DNA of 64,000 bases from assembly GCF_013394655.1 (NCBI RefSeq), contig NZ_CP053351.1, forward strand, positions 4,496,974-4,560,973, written 5' to 3'. The stretch is from Winogradskyella schleiferi (GTDB taxonomy: Bacteria > Bacteroidota > Bacteroidia > Flavobacteriales > Flavobacteriaceae). This document shows, piece by piece, positions 21,018 through 38,362 of the stretch. Below the pieces are notes generated by a model. It was not told where the DNA came from and did not search any database. It saw nothing but the letters and a program-made list of their open reading frames with translations. The translations under genes were made by a program, and so were the position numbers. The stretch's first letter is position 1. The number at the start of each line of letters is the position of its first letter.

Positions 21018-21042
21018 ATTCAATTCCGAATTTTTAATTTAA

Positions 21043-21053
21043 AATTCAAAGTT
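21043..21053. repeat. Left arm of an inverted repeat flanking the four-helix-bundle gene
   Basis: AATTCAAAGTT; its reverse complement AACTTTGAATT is at 21453-21463. The two arms bracket the gene at 21057-21452 almost exactly. Confidence 0.45.
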
Positions 21054-21056
21054 GGG

Positions 21057-21452: not shown

Positions 21453-21488
21453 AACTTTGAATTAACAATTTTAAATTTTGAACTTCAT

Positions 21489-21818
21489 TTACAGCGAAAA
21501 GCTCTCTCCGCAACCACAAGTGCGGTTCGCATTTGGGTTATTAAAGACAAAGCCGGCTCCGTTTAAGCCACCAGAATATTCTAAAGTGGTACCAATAAGG
21601 TATAGAAAGCTCTTTTTGTCCACAATGATTTTTACACCATTATCTTCAAAAACCTTATCGTCTTCGGCTCGTGAGTTATCAAACTTTAAATCGTAAGACA
21701 AACCAGAGCAACCACCACTTTTTACACCAACTCTAACAAAATCTGTAGTTGGGTTAAAGCCATCGTCATTCATCAGTTCTACGACTTTCTTTTTAGCTGT
21801 TTCAGAAACTTTTATCAT
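21489..21818 (-). CDS. sufA: SufA/IscA-type iron-sulfur carrier (HesB family)
   Basis: 109 residues. A-type carrier that transfers Fe-S clusters to apo-proteins. The three ligand cysteines are in VKSGGCSGLSY and in the C-terminal CGCGESFSL. First gene of the SUF unit, preceded by a TATATTTG -7 box. The symbol reflects context; IscA-type naming is equally possible. Confidence 0.93.
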   Translation of the reverse strand: MIKVSETAKKKVVELMNDDGFNPTTDFVRVGVKSGGCSGLSYDLKFDNSRAEDDKVFEDNGVKIIVDKKSFLYLIGTTLEYSGGLNGAGFVFNNPNANRTCGCGESFSL

Positions 21819-21849
21819 ATTCTTATATAGATTTACTCTAAATAGAATG

Positions 21850-21857
21850 CAAATATA
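21850..21857 (-). promoter_or_regulatory. Putative -7 box of the SUF operon
   Basis: Minus strand TATATTTG, 31 nt upstream of the sufA ATG (21818). No TTG at the expected spacing. Confidence 0.5.
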
Positions 21858-21964
21858 CGATATAACAAGGGTTAAACCATAGGTACTAACATTATATTAG
21901 CATATGATTTAATAAGATTTGGCTATGGAAGTTAAATTAAATAAAAGTCAATGTTGAATGGGGA

Positions 21965-22204
21965 CTATATAGCTACTTTTGTTTTAGAAATACGTTTTGT
22001 AAGCCTATATAATTCTTGTAAGGTATCGGTTATTTGGCTGTTGGGAACGGTATGATTTTCAAAATTTCCATGACGATCAGTAACCACAACGGTATCGCAA
22101 TGTGAACACGTCATTTCAATAGTATGGTCAATATTGGTTTTTGATCTTACGTAATTGTGCCCAAAAACGGCACAAGGGAGTGTTTCGGCAGAGGTAGGTT
22201 TCAT
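21965..22204 (-). CDS. Small zinc-ribbon-like protein (paralogue 1 of 3)
   Basis: 79 residues. Motif pattern C-A-V-FGHNY, then SKTNIDHTIEMTC-SHC: a Cys, a His and a CxxC pair that look like a compact zinc ribbon, followed by a charged helix (TLQELYRLTKRI). The same arrangement is in the proteins at 23465-23695 and 23777-24019. No named family assigned with confidence; the CxxFGHxY start resembles small DUF1660-like phage/bacterial proteins. Confidence 0.65.
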   Translation of the reverse strand: MKPTSAETLPCAVFGHNYVRSKTNIDHTIEMTCSHCDTVVVTDRHGNFENHTVPNSQITDTLQELYRLTKRISKTKVAI

Positions 22205-22416
22205 AGGTTAAAATTATTAGGGGATCACAATTTATATAAAACCAAGTCAATTTTTTGTCAAGATGCTCGATTTTTCGATGAAATACATAAAATATTTAGA
22301 TTCTAATCAAATAATTAACTGGAGATATTCGGGTTATGGATAAATTTCGATAATAGGAGATTGGATCTTTTTACAATAAATTACCATAGAAATAATTCTA
22401 TTCAAAAAAAGCACAA

Positions 22417-22424
22417 TATTTTTG
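22417..22424 (+). promoter_or_regulatory. Putative -7 box of thiL
   Basis: TATTTTTG followed by 4 nt and the thiL ATG (22429). Implies a leaderless or nearly leaderless transcript. No TPP-riboswitch-like leader is possible in this arrangement. Confidence 0.45.
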
Positions 22425-22428
22425 CATT

Positions 22429-23481
22429 ATGATAGAAGATAAAAATCCACAGCGAACCCCTTTAAGCGAATTAGGCGAATTTAAACTGATAGAACATTTG
22501 ACGGAACACTTTAAAGTGACCCAAAAATCTACCGTAAAAAGTATTGGCGACGATGCTGCTGTTTTAAATTTTGGTAAAAAACAAGTTGTTGTCTCTACAG
22601 ATCTATTAGTGGAAGGCGTGCATTTTGATTTGAGTTACGCACCTTTAAAACACTTGGGCTATAAGGCGATTGTAGTCAACCTTTCGGATATTTATGCCAT
22701 GAATGCTGTTGCCACGCAGGTTACGGTTTCAATAGCTGTTTCTAATCGTTTCCCTCTGGAGGCACTTGAAGAATTGTACGATGGAATTTCCACAGCAGCA
22801 GAAATTTACAATGTCGATGTAATCGGTGGCGATACTACGTCTTCAACTTCTGGATTGATAATTTCCGTGACAGCGATTGGTGAAGTTGACAAAGGCAACG
22901 AAGTGTTACGTTCTGGAGCAAAACCTAATGATTTAATCGTAGTGACAGGTGATGTTGGTGGTGCTTTTATGGGCTTACAGGTTTTGGAGCGCGAAAAGGA
23001 AGTCTTTAAAGTGAACCCAAATAACCAACCCGATTTATCCATGTACACTTATATTATTGAGCGACAACTTAAACCGGAAGCACGCAAGGATATTGTAGAA
23101 TTACTTAAGCAATTGGAAGTAAAACCGACTAGTATGATAGATGTTAGCGACGGCATTTCCTCTGAAATCATCCATTTATGTAAGCAAAGTAAGGTTGGTG
23201 CAGATATTTACGAAACTAAGATTCCTTTAGATCCGCAGGTGATTTCAACTTGTGAGGAATTTAATTTAGACAGTACTACAATTGCATTAAATGGTGGTGA
23301 GGATTACGAATTATTAATGACCATTGCCCAAGACGATTTTCCTAAAATAAAAGGCAACCCGAACTTAACGGTTATTGGCTATATAACGGAAGAAGACAGA
23401 GGTATGCATTTAGTAACAAGAGCGGAAGAAAAGATTCCGATTATAGCTAAAGGTTGGAATGCGCTTAAAAATCAAGCATAA
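22429..23481 (+). CDS. thiL: Thiamine-monophosphate kinase ThiL
   Basis: 350 residues. Phosphorylates thiamine monophosphate to the cofactor thiamine diphosphate using ATP. Motifs of the PurM-like fold are present: SIGDDAAVL near the N-terminus, VSTDLLVEGVHFDL, VVNLSDIYAMNA, IGGDTTSS, MIDVSDGISSEI and NGGEDYELL. Full length. No other thiamine genes are nearby. It is flanked by the three small zinc-ribbon paralogues, one of which converges on it with an overlap of 17 bp. Confidence 0.96.
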   Translation: MIEDKNPQRTPLSELGEFKLIEHLTEHFKVTQKSTVKSIGDDAAVLNFGKKQVVVSTDLLVEGVHFDLSYAPLKHLGYKAIVVNLSDIYAMNAVATQVTVSIAVSNRFPLEALEELYDGISTAAEIYNVDVIGGDTTSSTSGLIISVTAIGEVDKGNEVLRSGAKPNDLIVVTGDVGGAFMGLQVLEREKEVFKVNPNNQPDLSMYTYIIERQLKPEARKDIVELLKQLEVKPTSMIDVSDGISSEIIHLCKQSKVGADIYETKIPLDPQVISTCEEFNLDSTTIALNGGEDYELLMTIAQDDFPKIKGNPNLTVIGYITEEDRGMHLVTRAEEKIPIIAKGWNALKNQA

Positions 23482-23695
23482 CAAATCGCTGACTCTTTTC
23501 AAGTCGTTTGGTGTGCACACGATTCAATACAGAATTGATTTCTTTGAATTTTGGTGTTAAAGGAATAAATTTTCCATCGCCATCGATGGTCATTTCAGAT
23601 TTACAGTTTTTACACTTATATTCTTTAACGTGGTAAGTAACATTTTTGGAGACTTTATAGTCGTGACCAAACAATGAGCAATAAACATTTTTCAT
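23465..23695 (-). CDS. Small zinc-ribbon-like protein (paralogue 2 of 3)
   Basis: 76 residues: MKNVYCSLFGHDYKVSK, then YHVKEYKCKNCKSEM (CxxC) and a charged tail (INSVLNRVHTKRLEK). Closely similar to the next gene. Its 3' end overlaps the 3' end of thiL by 17 bp on the opposite strand. Confidence 0.65.
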   Translation of the reverse strand: MKNVYCSLFGHDYKVSKNVTYHVKEYKCKNCKSEMTIDGDGKFIPLTPKFKEINSVLNRVHTKRLEKSQRFVMLDF

Positions 23696-23776
23696 TTACT
23701 AGTTTTCTTAGAGGTATTAGGTTTTCAAGTAGGGTTTGAAATATAAGAAAAATAGTTACTAAAAAGTTGTTAACAA

Positions 23777-24019
23777 TTAACAAATCGACGAACTGAGCAT
23801 TTTTTGCTTTAAACGCATCGTTCGGTTGTTGTAAATACGTTCTAAAGCTGAATTTATTTCTTGACGTTTCTCCGTTAATTCGGTAAGACTTCCATTAGTG
23901 TTTGTCGTTAATTGTTTCTTGCAACACTTGCAGGTGTACTCTTTGACGTGATTGGTTACTTTTTTGCTTATTTGATAATTATGGCCAAATAAATCACAGT
24001 ATAGTTTTGTAGGTTTCAT
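23777..24019 (-). CDS. Small zinc-ribbon-like protein (paralogue 3 of 3)
   Basis: 80 residues: MKPTKLYCDLFGHNYQISK, then NHVKEYTCKCCKKQL (CxxC) and INSALERIYNNRTMRL. It is the nearest relative of paralogue 2 (shared FGHxYxxSKxVTxHVKEYxCKxCK). The conserved C, H and CxxC suggest one bound zinc ion. Function unknown. Confidence 0.65.
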   Translation of the reverse strand: MKPTKLYCDLFGHNYQISKKVTNHVKEYTCKCCKKQLTTNTNGSLTELTEKRQEINSALERIYNNRTMRLKQKMLSSSIC

Positions 24020-24096
24020 GATCGGTTTGTTTACAATTAATATTTTAATACTGAGGTAAACTTAGAAAAAAAGAACAAACAAAACGTTTAAAGGGA

Positions 24097-24873
24097 TTAA
24101 TTTTCGATGAAATGTAATAAATTGTAAGTTAATTCTGATTTATTCTCAATATGACTCATATGTCCTTCTGAAAACGCTACAAATTCAATTGCCGTATGTT
24201 CAATTTGATTGATAAGATTATTACCATCAATTAAACCATCTTTACTACCGATAATAATTAGCCGCTTAGTTTTCAAATTTTTTAAAATCTCAAAGCGATT
24301 GGGTCTTAATTTCATGCCTTCTGAAGCTGCGATGTAACCTTGTACTGGTGTTTGCAATGCAATTTGCAAAGCATCTATAACGTCATTTTTAAAAGTATCC
24401 TTACTTTCGGGTGCAAATAAATTTACGAAAGACATACGTACTAAATTTTGAAAATTTGTTTTGGCCATGGCATTGGCACGCGTACGCAGTTGTTTCTTTT
24501 CATCATCATCGGCTTCAAAAGTGGAGTTCATTAAACACAGACCTTTAAATAATTCAGGGTGCTTTTCGGCCAAAGCCAAGGTTACATAACCGCCCATGGA
24601 ATGCCCAACAAAATATGCAGTTTCAATATTTAGATGTTCCAAAACAGCAAAAACAGCTTCCGCCATAGCTTCCATTGTGTGCACATAACCCAAACAACCA
24701 GTTTTACCATGGCCCAACAAATCGATGCAAATCACTTGATGGGTTTGTGAAAATTCAGGAATAAAATCGTTCCACATCTCTAAGGTTTCAAGAAAACCGT
24801 GAAGTAAAACAAGAGCTTCTCCTTTACCTTCAGTGGTATAGTTAATTGTACTGTTTTTGTAATCTAAAGTCAT
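24097..24873 (-). CDS. Alpha/beta hydrolase
   Basis: 258 residues, cytoplasmic, no signal peptide. Oxyanion region VLLHGFLET, nucleophile elbow GHSMGG (Ser 92), acid in GSKDGLI and catalytic His in EGHMSHIE. Substrate unknown; MenH-like or generic esterase roles are both possible. A TATCTTTG box lies 5 nt before the ATG. It is divergent from the serine hydrolase at 24968. Confidence 0.9.
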   Translation of the reverse strand: MTLDYKNSTINYTTEGKGEALVLLHGFLETLEMWNDFIPEFSQTHQVICIDLLGHGKTGCLGYVHTMEAMAEAVFAVLEHLNIETAYFVGHSMGGYVTLALAEKHPELFKGLCLMNSTFEADDDEKKQLRTRANAMAKTNFQNLVRMSFVNLFAPESKDTFKNDVIDALQIALQTPVQGYIAASEGMKLRPNRFEILKNLKTKRLIIIGSKDGLIDGNNLINQIEHTAIEFVAFSEGHMSHIENKSELTYNLLHFIEN

Positions 24874-24878
24874 GTGGG

Positions 24879-24886
24879 CAAAGATA
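24879..24886 (-). promoter_or_regulatory. Putative -7 box of the alpha/beta hydrolase gene
   Basis: Minus strand TATCTTTG, then 5 nt (CCCAC), then ATG at 24873: a leaderless arrangement. Confidence 0.5.
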
Positions 24887-24930
24887 AATTTTGAAAATGT
24901 TTTACACCATTAATCATTATAACAATTTAG

Positions 24931-24938
24931 TATCTTTG
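24931..24938 (+). promoter_or_regulatory. Putative -7 box of the serine hydrolase at 24968
   Basis: TATCTTTG, 29 nt before the ATG. No TTG at the expected upstream spacing. Confidence 0.45.
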
Positions 24939-24967
24939 GAAGCATTCAAAACTAAATTCAATACCTA

Positions 24968-26521
24968 ATGTTTTTAAAACGACTATTTACTGCAGCACTT
25001 ATTGTTTCGGCTTTTCTATTAAACGCTCAAATTGAAGAACAACAACTTGATAATCTTATCAAGGAAACCCTAACCACTTTTGATGTGCCTGGCATTTCAG
25101 TTGGTATTTATAAGGATGGAGAAATTGTGTATGCCAAAGGTCATGGTGTACGATCCTTGACCAATAAAAAAGAGATGAATGCTGAAACCTTAGTCGGTGT
25201 TGCTTCAAACAGTAAAGGGTTTACTTGTTTTGCATTAGCGATGATGGTTGATGCTGGCAAATTAAATTGGGACGATAAAGTAAGGCAGCATATTCCGGAA
25301 TTTCAATTACACGATTCTTGGGTAACTGACAATTTCACGGTTCGGGATTTGGTAACGCACAGAAGTGGCATGGGTTTAGGCGCGGGCGATTTAATGTTTT
25401 TTCCTGAAGGCAGTGATTTTACGGTTGACGATGTTATTAAGAATGTAAAATATTTGGAACCAGAAACCTCATTCAGAAGTAAATTCGCTTACAATAATAA
25501 TATGTTCATTATTGCGGGTGAAGTTTTAAAACGGGTCAGCGGTCTGTCTTGGGAAGAATTTATTGAAACCAAAATTATGAAACCGGTTGGGATGACCAGT
25601 AGTAAAGCCGCTTACAACAGAGTTACCGATAAATCGAATATTATTGATGCGCATACCATGGCTGACGGAAAAGTCATCCAGATTCCACACGATTGGAGCG
25701 AACTGGCCAATCCTGCAGGAGGCATAATGAGCAACGTCCCAGATATGTTGACTTGGGCAGAATTTTTAATGAACGATGCGGTAACAAAAGATGGTGAACG
25801 TATATTAAGTGAAAAACAGTTTCATGAGCTTTGGCAATTACAGACCCCTTTAAAGGTTTATCCTAACGATTCGTATGACTCTAATTTTAAGGGATATGGT
25901 TTAGGTTGGTTTGTTGCAGACGTCAAAGGCGGCCATAAACAAGTGTATCACACAGGTGGTTTATTGGGTACGGTTACACAGTTTACCATGATTCCGGATT
26001 TGGATTTAGCCATTGTGGTGTTGACCAACCAAATGAACGGTTCAGCTTTTAACACCATTACCAACACTATTAAAGATTCGTATTTAGGATATGACAATAG
26101 AGATTGGATTGAAAAATATGGAAAGCGAAACGCAGATTACATTAAGTATAACGATAGTATAAAAGCAGAAGTGTACTCTAAAGTTGAAAAAGCCCAAAAA
26201 TTAAAAACCTTACCGAAACCAGAACATATTGTGGGCACGTACACCGACGATTGGTTTGGGGACGTGATTATTTCACACGATGCAAATAAAGGGTATGTGA
26301 TAAAGAGTAAACGTTCGTCCAGATTGTTTGGCGAGTTATTGCCCTTAAATGCGACCACTTTTGTTGCCAAATGGAACAATAGAAGTTATGACGCAGATGT
26401 CTATGTGCAATTTGCCTTTAATGAAAAGGAAGAAGCTGTTTCAGCCACCATGAAATATATTGCGCCAATTACCGATTTTAGTTTTGATTTTCATGATTTG
26501 GAACTTCAAAAAACTGAATAA
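24968..26521 (+). CDS. Serine hydrolase (class C beta-lactamase-like) with C-terminal DUF3471-like domain
   Basis: 517 residues with a signal peptide (MFLKRLFTAALIVSAFLLNAQ). Beta-lactamase-like domain: SxxK is SNSK (about 76), the Tyr motif is YNN (about 177), and HTGG is seen near the end of the domain. The C-terminal part (VGTYTDDWFGDVIISHDANKG) resembles DUF3471. Exported hydrolase of unknown substrate. It shares only the fold with the hydrolase at 15106 and differs in the C-terminal domain. Confidence 0.9.
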   Translation: MFLKRLFTAALIVSAFLLNAQIEEQQLDNLIKETLTTFDVPGISVGIYKDGEIVYAKGHGVRSLTNKKEMNAETLVGVASNSKGFTCFALAMMVDAGKLNWDDKVRQHIPEFQLHDSWVTDNFTVRDLVTHRSGMGLGAGDLMFFPEGSDFTVDDVIKNVKYLEPETSFRSKFAYNNNMFIIAGEVLKRVSGLSWEEFIETKIMKPVGMTSSKAAYNRVTDKSNIIDAHTMADGKVIQIPHDWSELANPAGGIMSNVPDMLTWAEFLMNDAVTKDGERILSEKQFHELWQLQTPLKVYPNDSYDSNFKGYGLGWFVADVKGGHKQVYHTGGLLGTVTQFTMIPDLDLAIVVLTNQMNGSAFNTITNTIKDSYLGYDNRDWIEKYGKRNADYIKYNDSIKAEVYSKVEKAQKLKTLPKPEHIVGTYTDDWFGDVIISHDANKGYVIKSKRSSRLFGELLPLNATTFVAKWNNRSYDADVYVQFAFNEKEEAVSATMKYIAPITDFSFDFHDLELQKTE

Positions 26522-27000
26522 GCCCTAAACAAATGAAAATCAAGATTTTAAGCCTACCAAGAACTCGAAAGTATTGTTGGGAGTTTTTGATAAAGCGTTA
26601 CTTATTAATCACTATATATTTTGCCACAAATACACGAATTCACTCGTTTTCTATATTATAAAATAATTGACTATTCATAAAACAAATGAAACAGACCTAA
26701 GGTTTGTTCCTAAGATTTATAGAACTTCATAAATAGCCTATATCAGATTCGTGTATTTGTGGCAAAAAAATCGATTACTTCTATTTTTGTCATGTACTAA
26801 ATTTTAAGACTAAAATTGTCTGAAAAATCTGATTTTATAACAAAGCAAAGGTAAATTTCTTCATTTCCAGTAACGAAGGAAGGGGAATTGATTATAGTTG
26901 TTATATAATTAACATTTTGTAAAAAGACATACAAATTTTTACATTTTTATGGTAAGCATTGCTATCGTATTTACATTTACAACCTAAAATTTGAATAGTT
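26522..27000. other. 479-bp intergenic region with a MITE-like element
   Basis: No coding frame recognised. Its main content is the inverted-repeat element at 26619-26767. The promoter of lysC must lie in its last 100 bp, but no clear TAnnTTTG box was found there. Confidence 0.5.
26619..26767. repeat. MITE-like element with perfect 21-bp terminal inverted repeats
   Basis: The left arm at 26619-26639 and right arm at 26747-26767 are perfect reverse complements over 21 bp (core GCCACAAATACACGAAT). The 107-bp interior is A+T-rich, non-coding and contains the small palindrome ACCTAAGGT. Short length, no ORF and terminal inverted repeats fit a non-autonomous mobile repeat; a giant stem-loop RNA is an alternative. 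Confidence 0.6.
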
Positions 27001-28329
27001 ATGTTAGTCTATAAATTTGGAGGCACTTCTGTAGGTTCTGTCATTAATATGAACCACGTAAAAGATATCATCAATACTAAAGGTAAAAAGATAGTCGTCC
27101 TTTCTGCCATGTCTGGAACCACCAATGCTTTGGTAGAGATTTCAGGATTGATAAAGGTCAAGGAAGTGTCGCAGGCGAAACATAAAATCAGTCAACTTCA
27201 CCATAGTTATAAGTCCACAGTAAACGATTTAATTACCGACAAAACCTTACGTAGCGAGGTCAGTTCCTATGTCACTTCGATTTTCGATGCGTTATTGGAT
27301 GCTGCCAGTCAGCCGCACTCTACATTATTGCACAATACTATTGTGGCCAATGGCGAGTTGTTGTCCACGTTTATGTTTAGCCGACTATTACAACAAGAAG
27401 GTTTAAAAGCCACCTTGCTGCCAGCTTTAGAATTTATGCGTATAGACCGCACCAACGAACCCGATAATTTCTACATCAAACAAAATTTAGAGCGTCTTAT
27501 TAATCAATCCCAAGACAGCGATATTTATATCACACAAGGGTTTATTTGTTTGGATGCCGAAGGGCAAATTACCAACTTACAACGTGGCGGAAGCGATTAC
27601 ACAGCTACCATCATTGGTGCAGCACTTGAAGTCGAAGAAGTCCAAATCTGGACCGACATCGACGGCTTCCATAACAACGATCCACGTTTTGTAAATAATA
27701 CCACAGCCTTATCGCATTTATCTTATGATGAAGCTGCGGAATTGGCCTATTTTGGTGCTAAAATTTTACATCCACAAACCGTAATGCCAGTACGTAGTTT
27801 AGACATTCCATTGCGACTTAAAAACACGATGGCGCCTAACGCACATGGGACTTTAATTACCAACCAAATTCATGGTGAAGGCATAAAAGCCATTGCCGCC
27901 AAAGATGGGATTACAGCCATAAAAATAAAGTCGGTACGTATGTTGTTGGCTCACGGTTTTTTAAAGAAAGTCTTTGAGGTCTTTGAAAAATACGAAACCT
28001 CCATTGATATGATTACCACGTCTGAAATCGCCGTTTCCCTAACCATTGACGACACCACACATTTAGAGTCCATCACAGAAGAACTCGAAAAATTCGCCAC
28101 CGTAGAGATTGACGATTATATGAGTATCGTTTGCTTGGTTGGTAATCAAATTATTTACCATCCAGATACACCACAGTTATTCCAAGTGCTACAAGATGTT
28201 AATGTCCGTATGATTGCCTATGGCGGCAGTAACAATAACATTTCACTTTTGGTAAATTCTAGTGATAAGTTGGAAACTTTGCAGAAGTTACAGCGTTATG
28301 TTTTTGAGGGTACGGTTGTGAGCGTTTAA
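27001..28329 (+). CDS. lysC: Aspartate kinase (monofunctional)
   Basis: 442 residues. First step of the aspartate family pathway (lysine, threonine, methionine). N-terminal KFGGTSVGSV is the aspartokinase signature; QRGGSDYTATIIGA and WTDIDGFHNNDPR mark the catalytic domain; tandem ACT-like regulatory segments follow (about 300-440). There is no homoserine dehydrogenase domain. The symbol lysC is chosen by default; which isoenzyme and which feedback inhibitor cannot be told from sequence. The stop codon lies 1 bp from the convergent small gene of the next island. Confidence 0.93.
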   Translation: MLVYKFGGTSVGSVINMNHVKDIINTKGKKIVVLSAMSGTTNALVEISGLIKVKEVSQAKHKISQLHHSYKSTVNDLITDKTLRSEVSSYVTSIFDALLDAASQPHSTLLHNTIVANGELLSTFMFSRLLQQEGLKATLLPALEFMRIDRTNEPDNFYIKQNLERLINQSQDSDIYITQGFICLDAEGQITNLQRGGSDYTATIIGAALEVEEVQIWTDIDGFHNNDPRFVNNTTALSHLSYDEAAELAYFGAKILHPQTVMPVRSLDIPLRLKNTMAPNAHGTLITNQIHGEGIKAIAAKDGITAIKIKSVRMLLAHGFLKKVFEVFEKYETSIDMITTSEIAVSLTIDDTTHLESITEELEKFATVEIDDYMSIVCLVGNQIIYHPDTPQLFQVLQDVNVRMIAYGGSNNNISLLVNSSDKLETLQKLQRYVFEGTVVSV

Positions 28330-28330
28330 A

Positions 28331-28645
28331 TTAAATTGCTGAAAAACATTTTTTACAAATTTTACTTTTTTGCTTTACAGGTTGATTACATCTTTTACAT
28401 GTTGTATATGAATTACCTTCACTATCAAAAAAATCTTCTGGGTCAATTTCTTCCCATTCTGTAAAATAGAACCATTCTTCTCTGGTGTTGAATTTACTTA
28501 GTTCATTTTTCCAATCTAATCCTAATGATTCTATATATTGTTTAGCTTGTTCTTCATTTTGGCAATAAAAATCTCCATTACCAAAACAATATCCACTGTT
28601 CATTCCGTTGCCATCAACATCACTTTTTCTTGCATATTTTTCCAT
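28331..28645 (-). CDS. Small protein with C-terminal zinc ribbon (YARKSD family)
   Basis: 104 residues from ATG 28645 (MEKYARKSDVDGNGMNSGYCFG). The frame runs back to a TTG at 28663 and an ATG at 28660, but those touch the -7 box. The body belongs to a Bacteroidota/phage hypothetical family (Y-A-R-K-x-D...GMNxGY) with acidic WEEIDPEDFFD. A C-terminal CKRCNQP...CKKC zinc ribbon has been added. Function unknown. It is divergent from the HTH/nuclease pair and shares the intergenic operator at 28677-28714. Much more A+T-rich than lysC. Confidence 0.7.
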   Translation of the reverse strand: MEKYARKSDVDGNGMNSGYCFGNGDFYCQNEEQAKQYIESLGLDWKNELSKFNTREEWFYFTEWEEIDPEDFFDSEGNSYTTCKRCNQPVKQKSKICKKCFSAI

Positions 28646-28660
28646 AATATCTTTTTTCAT

Positions 28661-28668
28661 CAAATATA
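28661..28668 (-). promoter_or_regulatory. Putative -7 box of the YARKSD-family gene
   Basis: Minus strand TATATTTG, directly touching the ATG at 28660 and 15 nt before the preferred ATG at 28645. The upstream promoter half would fall inside the 28677-28714 dyad. Confidence 0.45.
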
Positions 28669-28676
28669 AGGAAATG

Positions 28677-28714
28677 ATACTTATTGTATGTTGAATAACG
28701 CATACAATAAGTAT
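28677..28714. promoter_or_regulatory. Perfect 14-bp dyad operator of the HTH/nuclease island
   Basis: ATACTTATTGTATG (28677-28690) and CATACAATAAGTAT (28701-28714) are exact reverse complements separated by 10 nt. The dyad covers the -33 to -7 span of the forward promoter and lies just upstream of the reverse one. Likely the binding site of the HTH protein encoded 11 bp downstream. Confidence 0.75.
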
Positions 28715-28721
28715 AGTTTTG
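28691..28721 (+). promoter_or_regulatory. Promoter of the HTH/nuclease pair (TTG-N20-TAGTTTTG)
   Basis: TTG at 28691-28693, 20-nt spacer, -7 box TAGTTTTG at 28714-28721, then 4 nt and the ATG at 28726. Both elements match the Bacteroidota consensus. The predicted transcript is leaderless, as reported for many restriction-modification controller genes. Confidence 0.65.
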
Positions 28722-28725
28722 ATTA

Positions 28726-28995
28726 ATGGTAAATCAATTCATACTTATAGAATTTGGTAATCGAGTTCGACACTTAAGAACTCAAGCAGGACTAAGCCAA
28801 GAGAAATTATCTTTTTTAACAGGTTTTCATAGAACATATATTGGAATGATTGAACGTGGCGAGCGTAATATTTCACTTACTAATATTTTGGTATTTGCTA
28901 AAGCTTTTGAAATGGATGTATCTGAATTGATAGATTTCAAAAAACAAAATACTAAACTTAGTTTTAATGATTATGAATTAAAAGTTAATAAATAA
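28726..28995 (+). CDS. XRE-family HTH regulator, restriction-controller (C protein)-like
   Basis: 89 residues. HTH_3 domain (about 9-65): FGNRVRHLRTQAGLSQEKLSFLTGFHRTYIGMIERGERNISLTNI. The stretch HRTYIGMIERGERN is characteristic of C proteins that control type II restriction genes. Length is typical. It overlaps the next gene by 1 bp. A dyad operator and leaderless promoter sit immediately upstream, so autoregulation is likely. No methyltransferase gene is nearby, which is unusual for a C protein. Confidence 0.88.
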   Translation: MVNQFILIEFGNRVRHLRTQAGLSQEKLSFLTGFHRTYIGMIERGERNISLTNILVFAKAFEMDVSELIDFKKQNTKLSFNDYELKVNK

Positions 28996-29465
28996 TGTCA
29001 AGAAAACATTCGTTCAAACTGACATTATCTAACAATGTCACTGAAAAGCAAGGAATTAACTATCTAATCGAAGAACAAACTGGCTTTTTCAAAATAGATA
29101 AGGATATGAAAAAAGAACTCTTAGATAGAGTTAATATTCCACATAATTATTTACAGTCTTTTGATATGATATATATTCCAAAACTAAAAGGAATAAAATT
29201 TGAGAAAGACTTCATAGAAACTCATCTAGATGAAATACTTTTTGTTGAATTAAAAACAACAAAAAAATATCTTCCCGAAAATCCAAAAGGATTCTTTTTT
29301 GGTGCTACTGAAAATGAATTTAATTTCGGGAAATTATTAGGTTATAGGTTTAGATTTTGTTTTGTATGTTTAAACGTAAAGTCACCTTCTTACGCCATGT
29401 TGACAATAGAAGAACTTGAAAAAATTATAAGAAATAAAAGAATTCAGTTTCAAATAAACTTATAA
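28995..29465 (+). CDS. Putative PD-(D/E)XK nuclease-like protein (restriction endonuclease candidate)
   Basis: 156 residues, no signal peptide, very A+T-rich. A possible PD-(D/E)XK core is visible: Asp in LQSFDMIYIPK (about 57), then a hydrophobic strand ending in ILFVELKTTKK (E-x-K, about 84-86), then conserved-looking GFFFGATENEFNFGKLLG. Small size fits an orthodox type II enzyme or a nuclease toxin. No family was recognised with certainty. Its start overlaps the controller-like gene by 1 bp, the classic coupling of C and restriction genes. The cognate methylase is missing in this window. Confidence 0.55.
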   Translation: MSRKHSFKLTLSNNVTEKQGINYLIEEQTGFFKIDKDMKKELLDRVNIPHNYLQSFDMIYIPKLKGIKFEKDFIETHLDEILFVELKTTKKYLPENPKGFFFGATENEFNFGKLLGYRFRFCFVCLNVKSPSYAMLTIEELEKIIRNKRIQFQINL

Positions 29466-29468
29466 GGT

Positions 29469-30761
29469 TTAACCATTCATTATCTCCTCAATCTCATCAG
29501 CCTCAATAGGAATATGACGCATCAAATTAAACGGTTCGCCCTCTTCTTGTATCACCACGTCATCTTCCAAACGGATGCCAAAACCTTCATCCGGAATATA
29601 AATACCAGGTTCTACGGTAAAGACCATATTGGTTTTCATAGGTTCGTGAAGTATGCCGTAATCATGCGTATCTAATCCCATATGGTGCGAGGTGCCATGC
29701 ATAAAATATTTTTTGTAGGCCGGCCAATCTTTGTCTTCATTTTGCACATCGGCTTTGTCCAGTAAACCAAGGCCTATTAATTCTGAAGTCATTAATTTGC
29801 CAACTTCCACATGGTAATCGGCCCAAATAGCGCCTGGAACCAATAGTTTTGTGGCTTCGTTTTTTACACGATTCACGGCGTTATAAACCTCTTTTTGGCG
29901 TTTGGTAAATTGACCCGAAACAGGAATGGTTCTACTCATATCACTGGCATAGTTGGCGTATTCTGCACCAACATCCAATAGAATTAAATCACCAGCTTTA
30001 CATTGCTGGTTGTTTTCAATATAATGCAACACATTGGCATTGTTACCAGAAGCGACAATTGGTGTGTATGCAAATCCTCTTGAGCGGTTGTTTAAAAACT
30101 CGTGCATAAACTCGGCTTCAATATTATACTCCCAAATGCCTGGTTTTACAAAGTCCAAAATTCTCCGAAATCCTTTTTCCGTGATATTACAAGCTTCTTG
30201 TATAAGGTCGAGTTCCAAAGGATCTTTTACCGAACGTAAACGTTGCAAAATAGGATTGCTTTTTTCCACTTTATGCGCTGGGAACTCTGCCTTGATCTTT
30301 TTATTAAAACGTGCTTCACGGGTTTCCGTGGCAACATTGGCACGATAATGTTCATTGGTATTGATGTAAATGGTGTCTGCTTGTGACATAATTTCCTTCA
30401 TGATTTTGTCGAAATCATCAAGCCAATACACCGTTTTTATTCCCGCTGTTTCAAGTGCTTTTTCCTTGGTTAGTTTTTCACCTTCCCAAACTGCAATATG
30501 TGGGTTCGTTTCGGTTAAAAATAAAATTTCCCGGTGTTTTGGATTTGGACAATCTGGAAAAAGTACCAAGATGCTTTCTTCCTGGTCTACACCACTTAAG
30601 TAAAATATATTACGGTCTTGTTGAAAAGGTATCGTACTGTCGGCACCAATGGGATAAATATCGTTAGAATTAAATACGGCTAAACTATTTGGCACCATTT
30701 GAGCCATAAAATTTTTGCGGTTTTTTATAAAAAGTTGATTGTTTATGGGATTGTATTTCAT
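29469..30761 (-). CDS. pepP: Xaa-Pro aminopeptidase (aminopeptidase P, M24B)
   Basis: 430 residues. Removes N-terminal residues preceding proline; cytoplasmic dinuclear metal enzyme. N-terminal AMP_N domain (FLSGVDQEESILVL...), then the creatinase fold with metal ligands: two Asp in LLDVGAEYANYASDMSRT, His in GTSHHMGLDTHD, Glu in VEPGIY and Glu in RLEDDV. Full length. Confidence 0.95.
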   Translation of the reverse strand: MKYNPINNQLFIKNRKNFMAQMVPNSLAVFNSNDIYPIGADSTIPFQQDRNIFYLSGVDQEESILVLFPDCPNPKHREILFLTETNPHIAVWEGEKLTKEKALETAGIKTVYWLDDFDKIMKEIMSQADTIYINTNEHYRANVATETREARFNKKIKAEFPAHKVEKSNPILQRLRSVKDPLELDLIQEACNITEKGFRRILDFVKPGIWEYNIEAEFMHEFLNNRSRGFAYTPIVASGNNANVLHYIENNQQCKAGDLILLDVGAEYANYASDMSRTIPVSGQFTKRQKEVYNAVNRVKNEATKLLVPGAIWADYHVEVGKLMTSELIGLGLLDKADVQNEDKDWPAYKKYFMHGTSHHMGLDTHDYGILHEPMKTNMVFTVEPGIYIPDEGFGIRLEDDVVIQEEGEPFNLMRHIPIEADEIEEIMNG

Positions 30762-30791
30762 CAGAAAAATTTAGTTTTTAATTCCCGTGAA

Positions 30792-30809
30792 TTCCGATAA
30801 CTATCGGAA
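30792..30809. repeat. Palindrome TTCCGATA-AC-TATCGGAA
   Basis: Arms of 8 bp around a 2-nt centre; a relative of the palindrome at 10918-10933. Located upstream of pepP (minus). Confidence 0.5.
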
Positions 30810-30837
30810 AGGAATCTTATTAATATTAGATTGATTA

Positions 30838-30905
30838 TCAGCTTGAGCGCAGTCGAAGTGTCTTAAGTGGATAGATTTAATAGCTTTCGACTGCGCTCAA
30901 GCTGA
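30838..30905. repeat. Inverted-repeat element with 20-bp arms (CTTGAGCGCAGTCGAA type)
   Basis: The arms at 30838-30857 and 30886-30905 are perfect reverse complements over 20 bp, loop 28 nt. The core GAGCGCAGTCGAA is richer in G+C than its surroundings, as in dispersed REP-like elements of Flavobacteriia. It lies between divergent pepP and the BNR-repeat gene. Confidence 0.7.
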
Positions 30906-31055
30906 CATTTGTGTGCTTCCTATATGATAATCCCAAAAATAAACAAACAAAACCGCAAGCAAAAGCCAAAGCAAATAATCTCTTATAAATTAAGAGACTT
31001 TTATGAGGTTTTATTCTGAAATGTTTAAATTAACGGCATTAAAAATCCAGCAAAC

Positions 31056-33899
31056 ATGTTTAAATCAAAACTTTTATCACTCTTATTTTTTATAAGTTCA
31101 GTTGTTGCGTTTTCCCAACAACCTGCAACCTCAGCAGCAACGAATAAGCAGGCTTTGCAGCAGAAACAACAAATGACCGAAACGTCACTGGTCAAAAATG
31201 TACCTTTTGAGAGTATTGGGCCAACTGTTATGAGCGGTCGTGTAGTTGATGTGGATGTGAACCCGGAAACACCATCCGAATTTTATGTTGGATATGCGTC
31301 TGGAGGCGTATGGCATACCACCAATAACGGCACGACATTCACACCGATTTTAGATAATGCTCCAACTCAAAATGTTGGCGATATTGCTGTCGATTGGAAA
31401 AACAGAACCATTTGGGTTGGGACAGGCGAAAATAATAGCTCACGTTCCAGTTATGCAGGTATTGGCATTTTAAAATCCAATGATAACGGTAAAACTTGGG
31501 AGCATGTTGGTTTGCCAGACTCGCATCATATTGGTCGTATTCTTATCAATCCTAAAAATCCAGAAGAAGTGATTGTTGGAGTGACAGGTCACCTGTATTC
31601 ACCTAATGAAGAACGCGGCATTTACAAAACCACAGATGGCGGAAACACATGGAACAGAACCTTATTTGTGGATAATAAAAGTGGCATCATTGACGTGCAA
31701 CATGCGCCAGATAATTTTAATGTGATGTTCGCTTCGTCTTGGACAAGAGATCGAAAAGCATGGAATTTTACAGGAAACGGAACTAATTCAGCCATTTACA
31801 AAAGTACCGATGGCGGAGAAACATGGAAAAAGGTAACCACTGAGAAGAGCGGTTTCCCAACAGGCGAAGGTGTTGGTAGAATAGGAATTGCAGTTTTTGA
31901 TGAAAACACCATTTATGCTTTGCACGATAGTCATTTCCATAGAAAAAAGGAGCCTAAAAAAGGAGAAACTTCAGGATTAACAAAAGACGATTTTAAAACA
32001 ATGAGCGTTGATGCCTTTATGAATCTCGAAGATAACGCACTCAACGATTATCTTAAAACTAACGGGTTTCAAGAAAAATACAGAGCCTCTAACGTAAAGC
32101 AATTGGTGAGTAGTGGATCTGTAAAACCTATTGATTTGGCACATTACTTAGAAGATGCCAATGCTATGTTGTTTGATACGCCTGTTATTGGTGCTGAGGT
32201 TTATATAAGTACAGATGGAGGAAAATCTTGGGACAAAACACATGAGGATTATATCGATGGTTTGTATTACAGTTATGGCTATTATTTTGGGGAAATTAGA
32301 GTAGATCCACAAGATAAAAATGGCATTTATATTATGGGAGTGCCCATTTTAAAATCGAAAGATGCTGGCAAAACATTTACTTCTATCAGTCGTGAAAATG
32401 TTCATGCCGATCATCAGGCGCTTTGGGTAAATCCTAAAAAGCAAGGTCATTTAATCGATGGCAATGATGGTGGACTCAACATGAGCTACGACGACGGCGA
32501 AAGTTGGATAAAGCTGAATTCGCCAGCCGTTGGCCAATTTTATGCCATCAACGTCGATAATGAAAAACCATATAATGTTTATGGCGGATTACAAGATAAT
32601 GGCGTTTGGGTTGGTGCTAACAATGCCAGGGAAGATAAATCTTGGCACCAAAGCGGACAATACCCATGGGAAGAGCTAATGGGAGGCGATGGTATGCAAA
32701 TTCAGATTGATAGTCGTGATGCGAATATCGTTTATACGGGATTTCAGTTTGGGAATTACTATAGAATCAATCGTGAAACCAACGAGCTAAAATACATTCA
32801 ACCCAAACATACCTTGGGAGAAACACCATACCGTTTTAACTGGCAAACACCTATTTTGTTGTCGCCACACAATCAGGATATTCTGTATTTGGGTGGGAAT
32901 AAGTTGATGCGTTCCATGAATAAAGGTGATGATTTTGAAGCCATAAGCGATGATTTAACCAATGGTGGAAAAAAAGGAAATGTCGCTTATGGCACCTTGA
33001 CTTCTATTAGCGAAAGCCCCTTTCAATTCGGATTGATTTACACAGGAAGCGATGATGGTGTAGTAAGTATGACTAAAGATGCAGGAGGAAGCTGGACCAC
33101 AATTTCGAATGCATTGCCAAAAGATTTATGGGTAAGTAGAGTGATTGCCTCGCAACATAAAAAAGAACGTGTTTACGTAACCTTGAATGGGTATCGTTGG
33201 GATGATTTTAAAGTCTATGTTTATAGGAGCGACGATTACGGACAAACGTGGAAAGACATTAGTGCCAACATTCCTACGTCGCCAGTTAATGTAATAAAGG
33301 AAGACACGTTTAATGAAAATGTATTGTATTTAGGAACTGATAATGGTGCGTATGTCTCTTTTAATAAGGGAAAATTGTGGCATATATTTTCAAAAGGACT
33401 TCCAAATGTGGCTGTTCATGATATCGTGATTCAACCCGAAGCTAAAGATTTAGTATTAGGAACGCACGGCCGAAGTATTTATAAGGCTAATATTGAAGCC
33501 CTTCAAATTATAAACGCTGATGAGACTACGAATGATATTACCTTCATGGATATCCAACCGATAACACATTCTGCTCAATGGGGAAGTTCTTGGAGTCCTT
33601 GGTTTGATGCTTTTGAACCAGAAACCACGATTAGATTTTTTAGTAAATCTTCGAGAAATAAAACCTTGAAAATACAGTCTCAAGAGGGCTCCGAATTAGT
33701 GAAGCTGTCTGTAGCGGTTGAGAAAGGATTTAATTACGTGGATTATAATTTAGAACTTGATGAAAAAGGAAAGAAGGCTTTAATGAAAGAAGATGCGAGT
33801 ATTCATTTTAAAGAAACAGGCAATAAGAAATATTATTTACCAAAAGGCGTTTATACGATACAAATAGACAATTCCAAAACGACTTTTGAAATTAAATAA
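31056..33899 (+). CDS. Secreted BNR/VPS10-type beta-propeller protein
   Basis: 947 residues with a signal peptide (MFKSKLLSLLFFISSVVAFSQQ). Many BNR/Asp-box motifs (S-x-D-x-G-x-T-W: SNDNGKTW, TTDGGNTW, STDGGETW, STDGGKSW, YDDGESW, SDDYGQTW) form one or two beta-propellers of the sortilin/VPS10 type. It ends in a small beta domain without an obvious T9SS sorting domain. The family is annotated as glycosyl hydrolase-like, but catalytic activity is not shown. The next gene, a lipoprotein, starts 8 bp downstream and is probably cotranscribed. Confidence 0.9.
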   Translation: MFKSKLLSLLFFISSVVAFSQQPATSAATNKQALQQKQQMTETSLVKNVPFESIGPTVMSGRVVDVDVNPETPSEFYVGYASGGVWHTTNNGTTFTPILDNAPTQNVGDIAVDWKNRTIWVGTGENNSSRSSYAGIGILKSNDNGKTWEHVGLPDSHHIGRILINPKNPEEVIVGVTGHLYSPNEERGIYKTTDGGNTWNRTLFVDNKSGIIDVQHAPDNFNVMFASSWTRDRKAWNFTGNGTNSAIYKSTDGGETWKKVTTEKSGFPTGEGVGRIGIAVFDENTIYALHDSHFHRKKEPKKGETSGLTKDDFKTMSVDAFMNLEDNALNDYLKTNGFQEKYRASNVKQLVSSGSVKPIDLAHYLEDANAMLFDTPVIGAEVYISTDGGKSWDKTHEDYIDGLYYSYGYYFGEIRVDPQDKNGIYIMGVPILKSKDAGKTFTSISRENVHADHQALWVNPKKQGHLIDGNDGGLNMSYDDGESWIKLNSPAVGQFYAINVDNEKPYNVYGGLQDNGVWVGANNAREDKSWHQSGQYPWEELMGGDGMQIQIDSRDANIVYTGFQFGNYYRINRETNELKYIQPKHTLGETPYRFNWQTPILLSPHNQDILYLGGNKLMRSMNKGDDFEAISDDLTNGGKKGNVAYGTLTSISESPFQFGLIYTGSDDGVVSMTKDAGGSWTTISNALPKDLWVSRVIASQHKKERVYVTLNGYRWDDFKVYVYRSDDYGQTWKDISANIPTSPVNVIKEDTFNENVLYLGTDNGAYVSFNKGKLWHIFSKGLPNVAVHDIVIQPEAKDLVLGTHGRSIYKANIEALQIINADETTNDITFMDIQPITHSAQWGSSWSPWFDAFEPETTIRFFSKSSRNKTLKIQSQEGSELVKLSVAVEKGFNYVDYNLELDEKGKKALMKEDASIHFKETGNKKYYLPKGVYTIQIDNSKTTFEIK

Positions 33900-33907
33900 C
33901 TAGTAAA

Positions 33908-34780
33908 ATGAAACATCTTAAATCAGTATTAGTATTAGCAATCTTTGGAATGGTGTTCTCTTGTGGAACCGATAATGACGATTCGCAACAACCCTCAGCA
34001 GCTAACCTTATTATAAAGTTAAACTTTGATGCCAACCAACAACGCTTAAACAATTTAGGCCAACCCGCTACAATTCCAGATGGGAATGCAGCACAAACGC
34101 CAACCATTCAAAAAATGAGTGCCAATTATATTGAGTTTGCACCTACTGCCACGACCCAATTGGGACAAGGCGAGGTGGTTTTTGTAGGAGAGGAAACCGA
34201 TGCAGGTGGCGCCATGGCCATTGATTTTCAACAGGCTATTTTTGCTGGTGATGATGAGGTGTTTTTAAGTATGCCTTTGAGTGAAGTTGCTTCAGGTTCT
34301 TACGAATGGGTTAGAGTATCTTTGGCCTATCAGGAAGGCGATATTCAGCTCTTAAATAACGGTTCTGAAATTACCGGAACTTTAGCAAGCTTTGTTGGTT
34401 ATAACAATTACATCACCACATTTGATTTAAACGGAAGTGCAATTGCAGTAAACGATGATGTTCTGCAAGGGTTTTGGGCTTTTGAAGCTTTGGGTTTCAC
34501 CACTCAAGGGCAAGCACCTCCAGGCGCAACAACTGTTCCCAACCCGTTGTTTGCAACTTCGCCAGTACCTCAAGGGTCTTGTATTGTTACTGGTGAATTT
34601 TCCAACCCATTTACTATTACAGGAAATGAAACTGAAGATGTGACTGTAACGCTTTCGTTTTCAGTTAATGATAGTTTTGAATGGACGGAAGTGAATGCAG
34701 ATGGGCAATACGAACCTTCTGCTGGTGAACAAGTGGTTGATATGGGATTAAGAGGATTGATTCCTAGTGTTTCTAATTAA
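33908..34780 (+). CDS. Lipoprotein of unknown function
   Basis: 290 residues. Lipoprotein signal MKHLKSVLVLAIFGMVFSC with Cys 19, followed by an acidic linker (GTDNDDSQQ). The body is beta-rich (LIIKLNFDANQQRLNNLGQ..., YEWVRVSLAYQEGDIQLL, DVTVTLSFSVNDSFEW). Family not recognised. It follows the BNR-repeat gene by 8 bp and may act with it at the outer membrane. Confidence 0.75.
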   Translation: MKHLKSVLVLAIFGMVFSCGTDNDDSQQPSAANLIIKLNFDANQQRLNNLGQPATIPDGNAAQTPTIQKMSANYIEFAPTATTQLGQGEVVFVGEETDAGGAMAIDFQQAIFAGDDEVFLSMPLSEVASGSYEWVRVSLAYQEGDIQLLNNGSEITGTLASFVGYNNYITTFDLNGSAIAVNDDVLQGFWAFEALGFTTQGQAPPGATTVPNPLFATSPVPQGSCIVTGEFSNPFTITGNETEDVTVTLSFSVNDSFEWTEVNADGQYEPSAGEQVVDMGLRGLIPSVSN

Positions 34781-34815
34781 ATTCATTCTAAATAAATCTT
34801 TATGACAATTGTCAG

Positions 34816-34846
34816 TTGGGATTACGCCAATTGCGCTGTATCTTTG
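34816..34846 (+). promoter_or_regulatory. Promoter of the sdhCAB operon (TTG-N20-TATCTTTG)
   Basis: TTG at 34816-34818 and -7 box TATCTTTG at 34839-34846, with a 20-nt spacer. It lies 26 nt before the sdhC ATG. One of the clearest Bacteroidota-type promoters in the window. Confidence 0.75.
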
Positions 34847-34872
34847 CGAGACTAAAATAAATTAGATTAACA

Positions 34873-35559
34873 ATGAGCGGAATTCTAAATTCTTCGATTG
34901 GAAGAAAGTTTGCCATGGCACTTTCGGCACTCTTCCTAATGATTTTTGTATTACAACATTTTGCAATCAACTTTCTTTCTGTAGTAAGTCCAGATACTTT
35001 TAATGAAGTATCCCACTTTATGGGAACTTTTTGGGTTATTCAATTTGTGATTCAACCCATTTTAATTTTTGGGGTGATATTTCATTTTGTCATGGGATTC
35101 GTATTAGAAATCAGAAATAACAAGGCCAGAAAAATTAGCTATTCTAAAAATAATCCATCAGACAATTCTACTTGGATGAGTAGAAACATGATTTGGAGTG
35201 GAGGATTTATTCTTATATTCCTAATCATTCACATGATTGATTTTTGGGCGCCCGAAATTAATATCAAATATTTCAAAGGCGATATGACTGGATTGATCGA
35301 TCCCGATAATGTAAATAGTGGCTTTCGGTTTTATGAGGAACTCGTTCATAAATTTGAACCTATATGGCGTGTAGCCCTTTATTGCCTTGGCTTTGTATTC
35401 CTGTCACTTCACTTACTACATGGTTTTGACTCTGCATTCCAATCGGTTGGAGCAAATAATAAATACACAAAAGGATTACAGGGATTCGGAAAATTCTATG
35501 CAATTGTAATTCCAATAGGATTCATATTTATTGCATTATTCCATCATTTTAATCACTAA
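34873..35559 (+). CDS. sdhC: Succinate dehydrogenase cytochrome b subunit
   Basis: 228 residues, a five-helix membrane subunit of the b558 family (single-polypeptide anchor used by Bacteroidota). Conserved His residues lie in helices (QHFAINFL, IFHFVMGF, LIIHMIDFW, LSLHLLHGFDSAF) and can ligate two hemes. It anchors SdhAB and passes electrons to menaquinone. First gene of sdhCAB, 15 bp before sdhA. Confidence 0.95.
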   Translation: MSGILNSSIGRKFAMALSALFLMIFVLQHFAINFLSVVSPDTFNEVSHFMGTFWVIQFVIQPILIFGVIFHFVMGFVLEIRNNKARKISYSKNNPSDNSTWMSRNMIWSGGFILIFLIIHMIDFWAPEINIKYFKGDMTGLIDPDNVNSGFRFYEELVHKFEPIWRVALYCLGFVFLSLHLLHGFDSAFQSVGANNKYTKGLQGFGKFYAIVIPIGFIFIALFHHFNH

Positions 35560-35574
35560 TAATACACATCTAAT

Positions 35575-37572
35575 ATGGCTTTAGATTCTAAAATACCAAA
35601 AGGACCACTTGAAGATAAGTGGACTAATCATAAAAACGAAATTAACCTCGTTAATCCTGCTAATAAGCGTCTTATTGATGTTATTGTTGTTGGTACGGGT
35701 TTGGCTGGTGGTTCTGCTGCCGCAACTTTAGCCGAACTTGGCTATAACGTAAAGGCGTTTTGTTTTCAAGATTCGCCAAGACGTGCCCATTCAATTGCGG
35801 CACAAGGTGGAATCAATGCAGCAAAAAATTACCAAGGTGATGGTGACTCAACTTACCGTTTATTCTATGATACTGTAAAAGGTGGTGATTACCGCTCGCG
35901 CGAAGCTAATGTGCATCGTTTGGCCGAGGTATCCACTAATATTATTGACCAATGTGTGGCTCAGGGTGTGCCCTTTGCTCGTGATTATGGTGGTTTATTA
36001 GATAATCGTTCCTTTGGTGGCGTCTTGGTATCACGTACATTTTATGCTAAAGGTCAAACAGGTCAACAATTATTATTAGGAGCCTATTCAGCCATGAATC
36101 GTCAAATTGGTCGTGGTAAAATCAAGATGTTTACACGTCACGAAATGTTAGACGTTGTCGTTGTTGACGGAAAAGCTAGAGGTATTATAGCACGTAATTT
36201 GGTGACAGGCGAAATTGAACGTCATTCAGCACATGCTGTTGTATTGGGAACAGGAGGCTACGGAAATGCATTTTACCTTTCTACTTATGCTATGGGTAGT
36301 AATGTAACAGCAGCGTGGAAAGCACATAAACGTGGTGCCTATTTTGCAAATCCATGTTATACGCAAATTCACCCAACATGTATTCCAGTTTCTGGAGATC
36401 ATCAATCAAAATTAACCTTAATGTCTGAGTCGTTGAGAAATGATGGACGTATTTGGGTACCAAAACATAAAAAAGATGTTGAAGCTATTCGTGATGGCAG
36501 TTTAAAACCAACAGATTTAGCTGAAGAAGATAGAGATTATTACTTAGAGCGTCGTTATCCTGCGTTTGGTAACTTGGTTCCACGAGATGTAGCCTCTAGA
36601 GCTGCAAAAGAACGTTGCGATGCTGGTTACGGAGTGAATAAAACCGGTGAAGCAGTGTATTTGGATTTCGCCTCAGCCTTTATGCGTTATGGAAAAGAAC
36701 AAGCTCACGTTAAAGGATTAGACGAAAATGATGAGGCGCTAGTTAAAAAATTAGGTCAGGAAATCGTAAAAAATAAATACGGAAACTTATTTCAGATGTA
36801 CGAGAAAATTGTAGATCAGAATCCGTACGAAACACCAATGATGATTTATCCAGCGGTTCATTACACAATGGGAGGTATTTGGGTCGATTATAATTTAATG
36901 ACAACGGTGCCTGGTTTATACTGTATTGGAGAAGCTAATTTCTCAGATCATGGAGCTAACCGATTAGGTGCTTCTGCATTAATGCAAGGACTTGCTGATG
37001 GTTATTTCGTATTGCCTTATACAATAGGTGATTATTTAGCCCATGATATTAGAACAGGTCCAATCCCTACAGAAACAAAGGAATTTGATGATGCTGAAAA
37101 AAGTGTGACTGAAACACTCGACAAGTTAATTAATAATAACGGCACACATTCTGTTGACCATTTCCATAAGCGTTTAGGAAAAATTATGTGGAATAAATGC
37201 GGAATGGCTAGAAACGCTAAAGATCTTAAGGAAGCTATTACTGAAATTGCAGAATTAAGAGCGGAATTTTGGAAAGGTGTTAAAATTCCAGGAAGGGCAG
37301 ACGAATATAATGAAGAATTGGCCAAAGCTGGTCGTGTTGCGGATTTCTTGGAGTTAGGAGAGCTATTCGCTAAAGATGCTTTAGTAAGAGAGGAATCAGC
37401 AGGAGGACATTTTAGAGAAGAATATCAAACCCCAGAAGGTGAAGCCATGCGTCGCAAAGAGTTTCAGTTTGTTTCGGCTTGGGAATATAAAGGAGAACCT
37501 AAAGATGCTGTGCTTCATAAAGAAGATTTAGTATACGAAAATATTGAAGTGAAAGAGAGAAGTTACAAATAA
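35575..37572 (+). CDS. sdhA: Succinate dehydrogenase/fumarate reductase flavoprotein subunit
   Basis: 665 residues. FAD-binding [18 protein letters not shown] near the N-terminus and the flavinylation region [18 protein letters not shown] (covalent FAD His). The substrate region includes HPTCIP and [20 protein letters not shown]. It oxidises succinate to fumarate in the TCA cycle. Middle gene of sdhCAB. Confidence 0.97.
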
Positions 37573-37580
37573 AAAAAGCT

Positions 37581-38327: not shown

Positions 38328-38328
38328 A

Positions 38329-38362
38329 CCCATCCCAACCCTTCCTTTAGGGAAGGACAAAA
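38329..38362. repeat. Extragenic hairpin repeat CCTTCC...GGAAGG
   Basis: A C-rich stretch (CCCATCCCAA) followed by the hairpin CCTTCC-tttag-GGAAGG directly after sdhB. It resembles the short G+C-rich extragenic repeats common in Flavobacteriaceae and precedes the true terminator. Confidence 0.45.

Follow-up and report, generated by a model that had tools for sequence, protein, structure and literature searches.

We analyzed a 64,000-nucleotide stretch of the Winogradskyella schleiferi genome (contig NZ_CP053351.1; the whole stretch is called the window below) and focused on an island of three genes, in which a restriction controller (C) protein is encoded next to a small predicted nuclease, R156, and a divergent gene, YAR. 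The island occupies positions 28331 to 29465, between lysC, which ends at 28329, and pepP, whose stop codon begins at 29469; the stop codon of YAR begins at 28331. Its GC content is 0.267 versus 0.361 for the window, and none of the 629 sliding windows as long as the island has so low a value. The genes of C (28726 to 28995) and R156 (28995 to 29465) overlap by one base, at 28995, within the sequence TAATG. A first-pass annotation made from the sequence had described a low-GC island fitted tightly between the stop codons of lysC and pepP, with a 1-bp overlap between two of its genes, and both the coordinates and the GC scan agree with that description. The lysC-pepP junction is a variable site into which the island has been inserted. 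Thirty same-genus pepP loci (L090 to L119) were compared, taken from the 63 that matched among 68 genomes; lysC and pepP are separated by a gap of 18 to 105 bp in six of them, and other genes stand there in others. As separate observations, a transporter-like gene lies at the junction in L099, and a putative 5-methylcytosine (m5C)-methylase-like open reading frame (ORF) adjoins pepP in L107.

The C protein (89 aa; plus strand) was assigned by profile and structure-sequence matches. It matches the PADLOC Control_protein profile (E = 3.1e-22) and, as its best match in the Protein Data Bank (PDB), the C.AhdI structure 1y7y (E = 1.2e-17), and it is preceded by a conserved C-box, which together establish the helix-turn-helix (HTH) gene as a genuine restriction controller, as had been proposed. 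The C-box, an inverted repeat at 28677 to 28714, consists of two palindromic operators, ATAC-N5-GTAT, that are mirror-symmetric to each other. In the collection of loci described below, the motif lies upstream of C in 37 of the 42 C-bearing loci and farther upstream in two more; it has no other match within 631 kb of locus sequence and a single site in the W. schleiferi genome. Two candidate -7 promoter elements were read from the sequence, TAGTTTTG for C-R156 (28714 to 28721, plus strand) and TATATTTG for YAR (28661 to 28668, minus strand), judged against TAnnTTTG, which we take to be the Bacteroidota -7 consensus. The YAR octamer recurs identically, at the same position, in L011, and its counterpart in L052 is TATATTTA. 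Leaderless transcripts are known from C genes, and the C-R156 message may also be leaderless, since its candidate -7 element ends only four bases before the C start.

R156 (156 aa; plus strand) is, according to its sequence motif and its predicted model, a putative PD-(D/E)XK-type nuclease. The residues E17, D57, E85, and K87, the last two forming an E-x-K motif, are identical in all 46 aligned R156 sequences longer than 140 aa, so that the D...ExK core suspected at first sight is indeed conserved. Profiles relate the family distantly to NOV_C (PF13020, the C-terminal domain of Protein NO VEIN), the most similar profile, which matches 23 of 26 family members (best E = 2.2e-4), in no case over the Pfam cut-off; NOV_C is not among the matches listed for the R156 of the window. 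The R156 sequence gave nothing above the cut-off in Pfam, NCBIfam, PHROGs, or PADLOC and no credible match in a sequence search of the PDB. Its structural matches include the modification-dependent enzymes NhoI, Eco15I, and DpnI. R156 differs from NOV_C in being a short, stand-alone protein under C control. In the accessible literature, in which subscription journals were partially covered and REBASE lay outside the search, we found no publication that pairs a C protein with a NOV_C-like nuclease lacking a methylase.

Database searches returned 1136 relatives of R156 in one case and 2050 in another. We collected 55 sequences and kept 49 nonredundant loci, leaving out L001, L048, L049, L050, L051, and L053, which we treated as duplicates of the window, L004, L005, L007, L011, and L017. 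The 49 loci belong to five phyla, as labeled in the database records, and the length of flank on each side varies between less than 1 kb and 8 kb, so that the absences reported here hold within the examined flanks. A genome scan gave 45 R156 loci, which the record titles assign to Bacteroidota, Sulfurimonas, Marinicella, Acidobacteria, and Patescibacteria, many of them in metagenome-assembled genomes. The pair recurs in other genomes: C lies upstream of R156 in 42 of the 49 loci, a recurrence that excludes a chance pairing. Among the other seven, L010, L043, and L054 lack C despite having enough flank, and the sequence ends at or near R156 in L032, L037, L044, and L046. R156 is rare in the family of the window (9 of 397 genomes, that of W. 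schleiferi included), but copies from different genera can be as much as 96% identical, which indicates horizontal spread; C-R156 is a horizontally spread two-gene unit. The island of the window is a mosaic: its R156 is 90 to 96% identical to those of L002 to L009, with which its C shares only 61 to 69%, whereas its C and YAR are nearer to those of L011 and L052 (74 to 76% for C, 49 to 52% for YAR, and 73 to 74% for R156). No R156 relatives were found in viral contigs, plasmids, or phages, so that these searches point to no carrier element.

A decayed restriction-modification (R-M) locus, one of the options raised by the first-pass annotation, would account for the truncated methylase and Sau3AI genes that stand beside many relatives of the unit. 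This explanation is hardly credible and we reject it. The ratio of nonsynonymous to synonymous substitution rates (dN/dS) of R156 is 0.013 to 0.052 in the closest codon comparisons and 0.05 to 0.17 in more distant pairs (n = 23, with synonymous changes saturated and no ratio in six), and close pairs are 59 to 65% identical at third codon positions versus 92 to 97% at positions 1 and 2. The active site is invariant and the C-box conserved; the neighbors decay, whereas C-R156 does not.

In the island of the window, no methylase accompanies the controller-nuclease pair, as was first noted. A motif scan (not a profile search) found no methylase-like motif in positions 20001 to 40000 of the window, and the same scan found none in the examined flanks of 31 of the 49 loci. 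It detected a truncated m5C methylase in 14 loci and an intact D12 methylase in five, L021 and L026 having both, and in L037 an intact m5C methylase gene that neighbors one for an Eco47II-family enzyme; intact linked methylases, of the D12 or Eco47II type, are thus present at six loci only, and the matches in L011, L043, and one in L026 look spurious. Among the examined loci we found no complete C-R156-methylase system. The linked cognate methylase that defines membership in Type II R-M systems is missing at C-R156 loci, and the 14 linked m5C genes are truncated.

R156 might nevertheless be an orthodox Type II enzyme that cuts unmodified sites, each host being protected by one of various methylases encoded elsewhere. 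C proteins normally serve such enzymes, and separated or solitary restriction enzymes are known (PMC3488263). Genome-wide, each of the nine hosts in the family has at least one match among five methylase families (PF00145 in five hosts, PF02086 in four, PF01555 in three, PF02384 in seven, and PF07669 in eight), and the W. schleiferi genome carries two PF00145 and two PF01555 genes away from the island. Against this, none of the five families is common to all nine hosts, many of the PF02384 and PF07669 matches are short or weak, and three hosts (G049, G209, and G321) have no PF00145, PF02086, or PF01555 gene. Moreover, R156 proteins up to 96% identical across genera would recognize one site, which different enzymes would have to protect, and an unprotected enzyme spreading horizontally would be lethal. 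We consider the orthodox enzyme unlikely.

The divergent gene, YAR (28331 to 28645, minus strand), was delineated from aligned relatives and encodes 104 aa with a conserved YARK N terminus and a C-terminal, zinc-ribbon-like CxxC...CxxC motif. Six aligned relatives share 41 invariant columns, and the CxxC...CxxC motif is invariant in all six, in keeping with the zinc ribbon initially assigned to the protein; its start, judged from the relatives, moves from 28663 to 28645. A match to DZR is sub-threshold only, and the predicted model, with a predicted local distance difference test score (pLDDT) of 62, is too poor for a fold claim. A protein search gave three relatives. YAR is present in 3 of the 397 family genomes, each of them an R156 host with YAR beside C-R156 (P = 8e-6), in a search that scored at most 12 candidates per genome. 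YAR lies beside C-R156 in 3 of the 49 loci, and the YAR of the window has relatives in L011 and L052. X1 and X2, two unrelated small families delimited by targeted tblastn, are convergent with the end of R156 and overlap its 3' end; they occur in 14 and 11 loci (some X2 being partial) and together stand in the place of YAR in 25. None of the three was found in 21 loci, among which L014, L025, and the four Sulfurimonas loci mentioned below have other small ORFs; L006, L010, L023, and L038 have no obvious alternative small gene. In L024 (offsets 471 to 1046), a single open frame joins X1 to an HTH protein akin to the one encoded in the Sau3AI-family operon.

These small genes bear on the possibility that C-R156 and a small partner form a toxin-antitoxin-like or abortive system in which YAR, X1, or X2 neutralizes R156. 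The strict linkage of YAR to C-R156 and its divergence from the same operator are consistent with such a role, as are the overlap of X1 and X2 with R156 and a further small ORF (64 to 68 aa) common to four Sulfurimonas loci (L028, L030, L031, and L033), upstream of C in surroundings that are otherwise partly different. On the other side, the three partner families are unrelated, near-identical R156 proteins occur with different ones or with none, and there is no constant linked antitoxin, so that a system of this kind seems improbable to us. YAR belongs to the C-R156 system and is optional in it. Because nearly identical R156 proteins occur without YAR, it is unlikely to be a dedicated, necessary antidote, and the idea that the divergent gene confers immunity is correspondingly weakened by its presence in only 3 loci. 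Since 21 loci lack YAR, X1, and X2, four of them with no obvious alternative, R156 seems harmless without a partner, as far as gene content can tell.

The loci also carry the remains of another system. Parts of a Sau3AI-family operon (an HTH gene, an m5C methylase gene, and the gene of a Sau3AI-family enzyme, assigned by NCBIfam NF040973 and the Sau3AI structure) flank the unit in 22 of the 49 loci, a count that includes the weak L045 (E = 1e-2) and the distant L027 (36 to 37%). C-R156 lies antisense in a gap where the methylase gene has lost its 3' part and the Sau3AI gene its 5' part: what is left of the methylase stops at residue 92 to 323 of 415, and the retained Sau3AI starts at reference residue 29 to 380 or is reduced to its last part or an inner piece. 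In four R156-free loci (L060, L061, L066, and L070), the methylase has 408 to 415 aa; three of these loci have the HTH gene, and in three (L061, L066, and L070) the Sau3AI gene adjoins the methylase. One could imagine that R156 is a homing-type endonuclease that targets such operons and copies the unit into them. We regard this as very unlikely, given that the break points vary widely, with no one fixed insertion site, that 27 loci are without Sau3AI-family remains, and that coding sequence was lost instead of a site being precisely filled.

The methylase family is present in 66 of the 397 family genomes, 64 copies being intact (that is, stop-free open frames of 408 to 469 aa) and two truncated. 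Both truncated copies belong to R156 hosts (Fisher P = 0.0005), and an intact methylase is found in 64 of the 388 genomes without R156. Among the 45 R156 host genomes of the wider scan, 14 have the methylase, in every case truncated at the R156 locus and with no intact copy elsewhere. Truncated methylases at R156 loci are what an incompatibility between R156 and the methylase predicts. A single old insertion followed by erosion predicts the same truncated methylases, and in the family sample the absence of an intact methylase from the nine hosts is not significant alone (P = 0.20). R156 coexists with other intact methylases, so that any modification dependence would need to be a specific one.

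In our analysis, modification dependence best explains a C-timed nuclease that tolerates hosts lacking a cognate methylase, crosses phyla, and meets a methylase only where it is broken, much as DpnI stands beside DpnII and McrBC genes stand as inserts in R-M complexes. The invariant active site and the low dN/dS of R156 despite the missing linked methylase also favor it, as do the structural matches to modification-dependent enzymes. We suggest that C-R156 encodes a C-timed, DpnI-like nuclease that is harmless to unmodified hosts and whose target is made by the displaced methylase, a reading that we find plausible, though somewhat short of probable. The first-pass annotation is upheld in part, in that the controller-nuclease set without a methylase is real and widespread and that the modification-dependent option, one of those it listed, is the one we favor; its decay option is not retained. 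As C-protein biology and the C-box suggest, C would bind the double operator and activate, then limit, the C-R156 promoter, and in so doing would hold the nuclease back for a time once the unit had entered a cell. R156 would most likely cut DNA only where a particular modification is present, so that an unmodified host would be safe without a methylase and marked phages or mobile DNA would be destroyed. Sau3AI recognizes GATC, and its methylase makes m5C; the mark would most likely be cytosine methylation by Sau3AI-family systems. The unit now occupies, in many genomes, the place once taken up by the last part of the methylase gene and the first part of the Sau3AI gene, so that both were lost. 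The delay would allow old methyl marks to be diluted out by the time R156 is made. The small genes, YAR included, are optional accessories.

A more specific proposal, possible in our opinion and rather doubtful in its full form, is that C-R156 is an anti-restriction cassette, C-timed and DpnI-like, directed against Sau3AI-family methylation, which by replacing the methylase/Sau3AI junction would disarm both halves of the resident system at once and would then guard against its re-entry and against marked phages, with YAR, X1, and X2 being interchangeable. The accepted role of C proteins is that of timers, which give the methylase a head start over the nuclease. In a large conserved family with a timer and a nuclease and without a methylase, the delay must have some other purpose. 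If the reading favored above is right, the delay serves the dilution of old methylation after removal of a rival. C control would then have a new use, and the truncated genes would record the displacement of one restriction system by another. The R156 family also offers small nucleases whose specificity lends itself to direct tests.

The arrangement recalls several known systems. DpnI and DpnII are alternative cassettes at a common chromosomal location in Streptococcus pneumoniae (PMC3573125), where a nuclease that depends on methylation shares its place with a complete R-M system, as C-R156 does with the Sau3AI-family operon. In contrast to DpnI/DpnII, the operon here is broken and not cleanly exchanged, and R156, with 156 aa, lacks a DpnI-like winged-helix domain, its methylation dependence being our supposition. 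We know of no C protein in the DpnI/DpnII arrangement. With C-controlled Type II R-M systems (AhdI, BclI, PvuII, and others), the loci share the C protein, the double operator, the overlap of C with the nuclease gene, and a divergent gene, here YAR, in the usual place of the methylase; they differ in having no cognate methylase. McrBC homologs are reported to occur as inserts in R-M complexes (PMC2614495); C-R156 is alike in that genes of a putatively methyl-specific nuclease are inserted in such a complex, but R156 is a single small nuclease with no GTPase partner and under C control. Finally, Ershova et al. (2012) described solitary restriction endonucleases whose genes have no methylase or stand beside a truncated one; unlike C-R156, those analyzed there fall in orthologous groups with complete R-M systems, and the terms "C protein" and "control protein" are absent from that text (PMC3488263).

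A few features of individual loci complete the picture. In L007, an intact D12 methylase gene and the gene of a 203- to 229-aa protein stand on opposite sides of the unit (offsets -1445 to -435 and 747 to 1433 from the R156 start), and L021 and L026 are similar; the 203- to 229-aa protein has no family match, and the two genes may form an R-M pair of their own. Inverted repeats (GGGCGTT...GGTCGGGCTTT-like, about 90 to 115 bp) on both sides of C-R156-X in L003, L004, L012, and L017 were considered as part of the unit and rejected, a related core being also found one-sided or away from the unit and absent from the window. Direct repeats surround C-R156-X in L007 (88 bp, 92% identical, offsets -439 to -352 and 761 to 848) and a wider island in L021 (201 bp, 85%, offsets -1242 to -1043 and 1663 to 1863), and both resemble the long target duplications seen at restriction-system insertions. 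In L019, the gene of a Vsr mismatch endonuclease (Pfam E = 2.5e-30) adjoins C-R156 at offsets -908 to -387.
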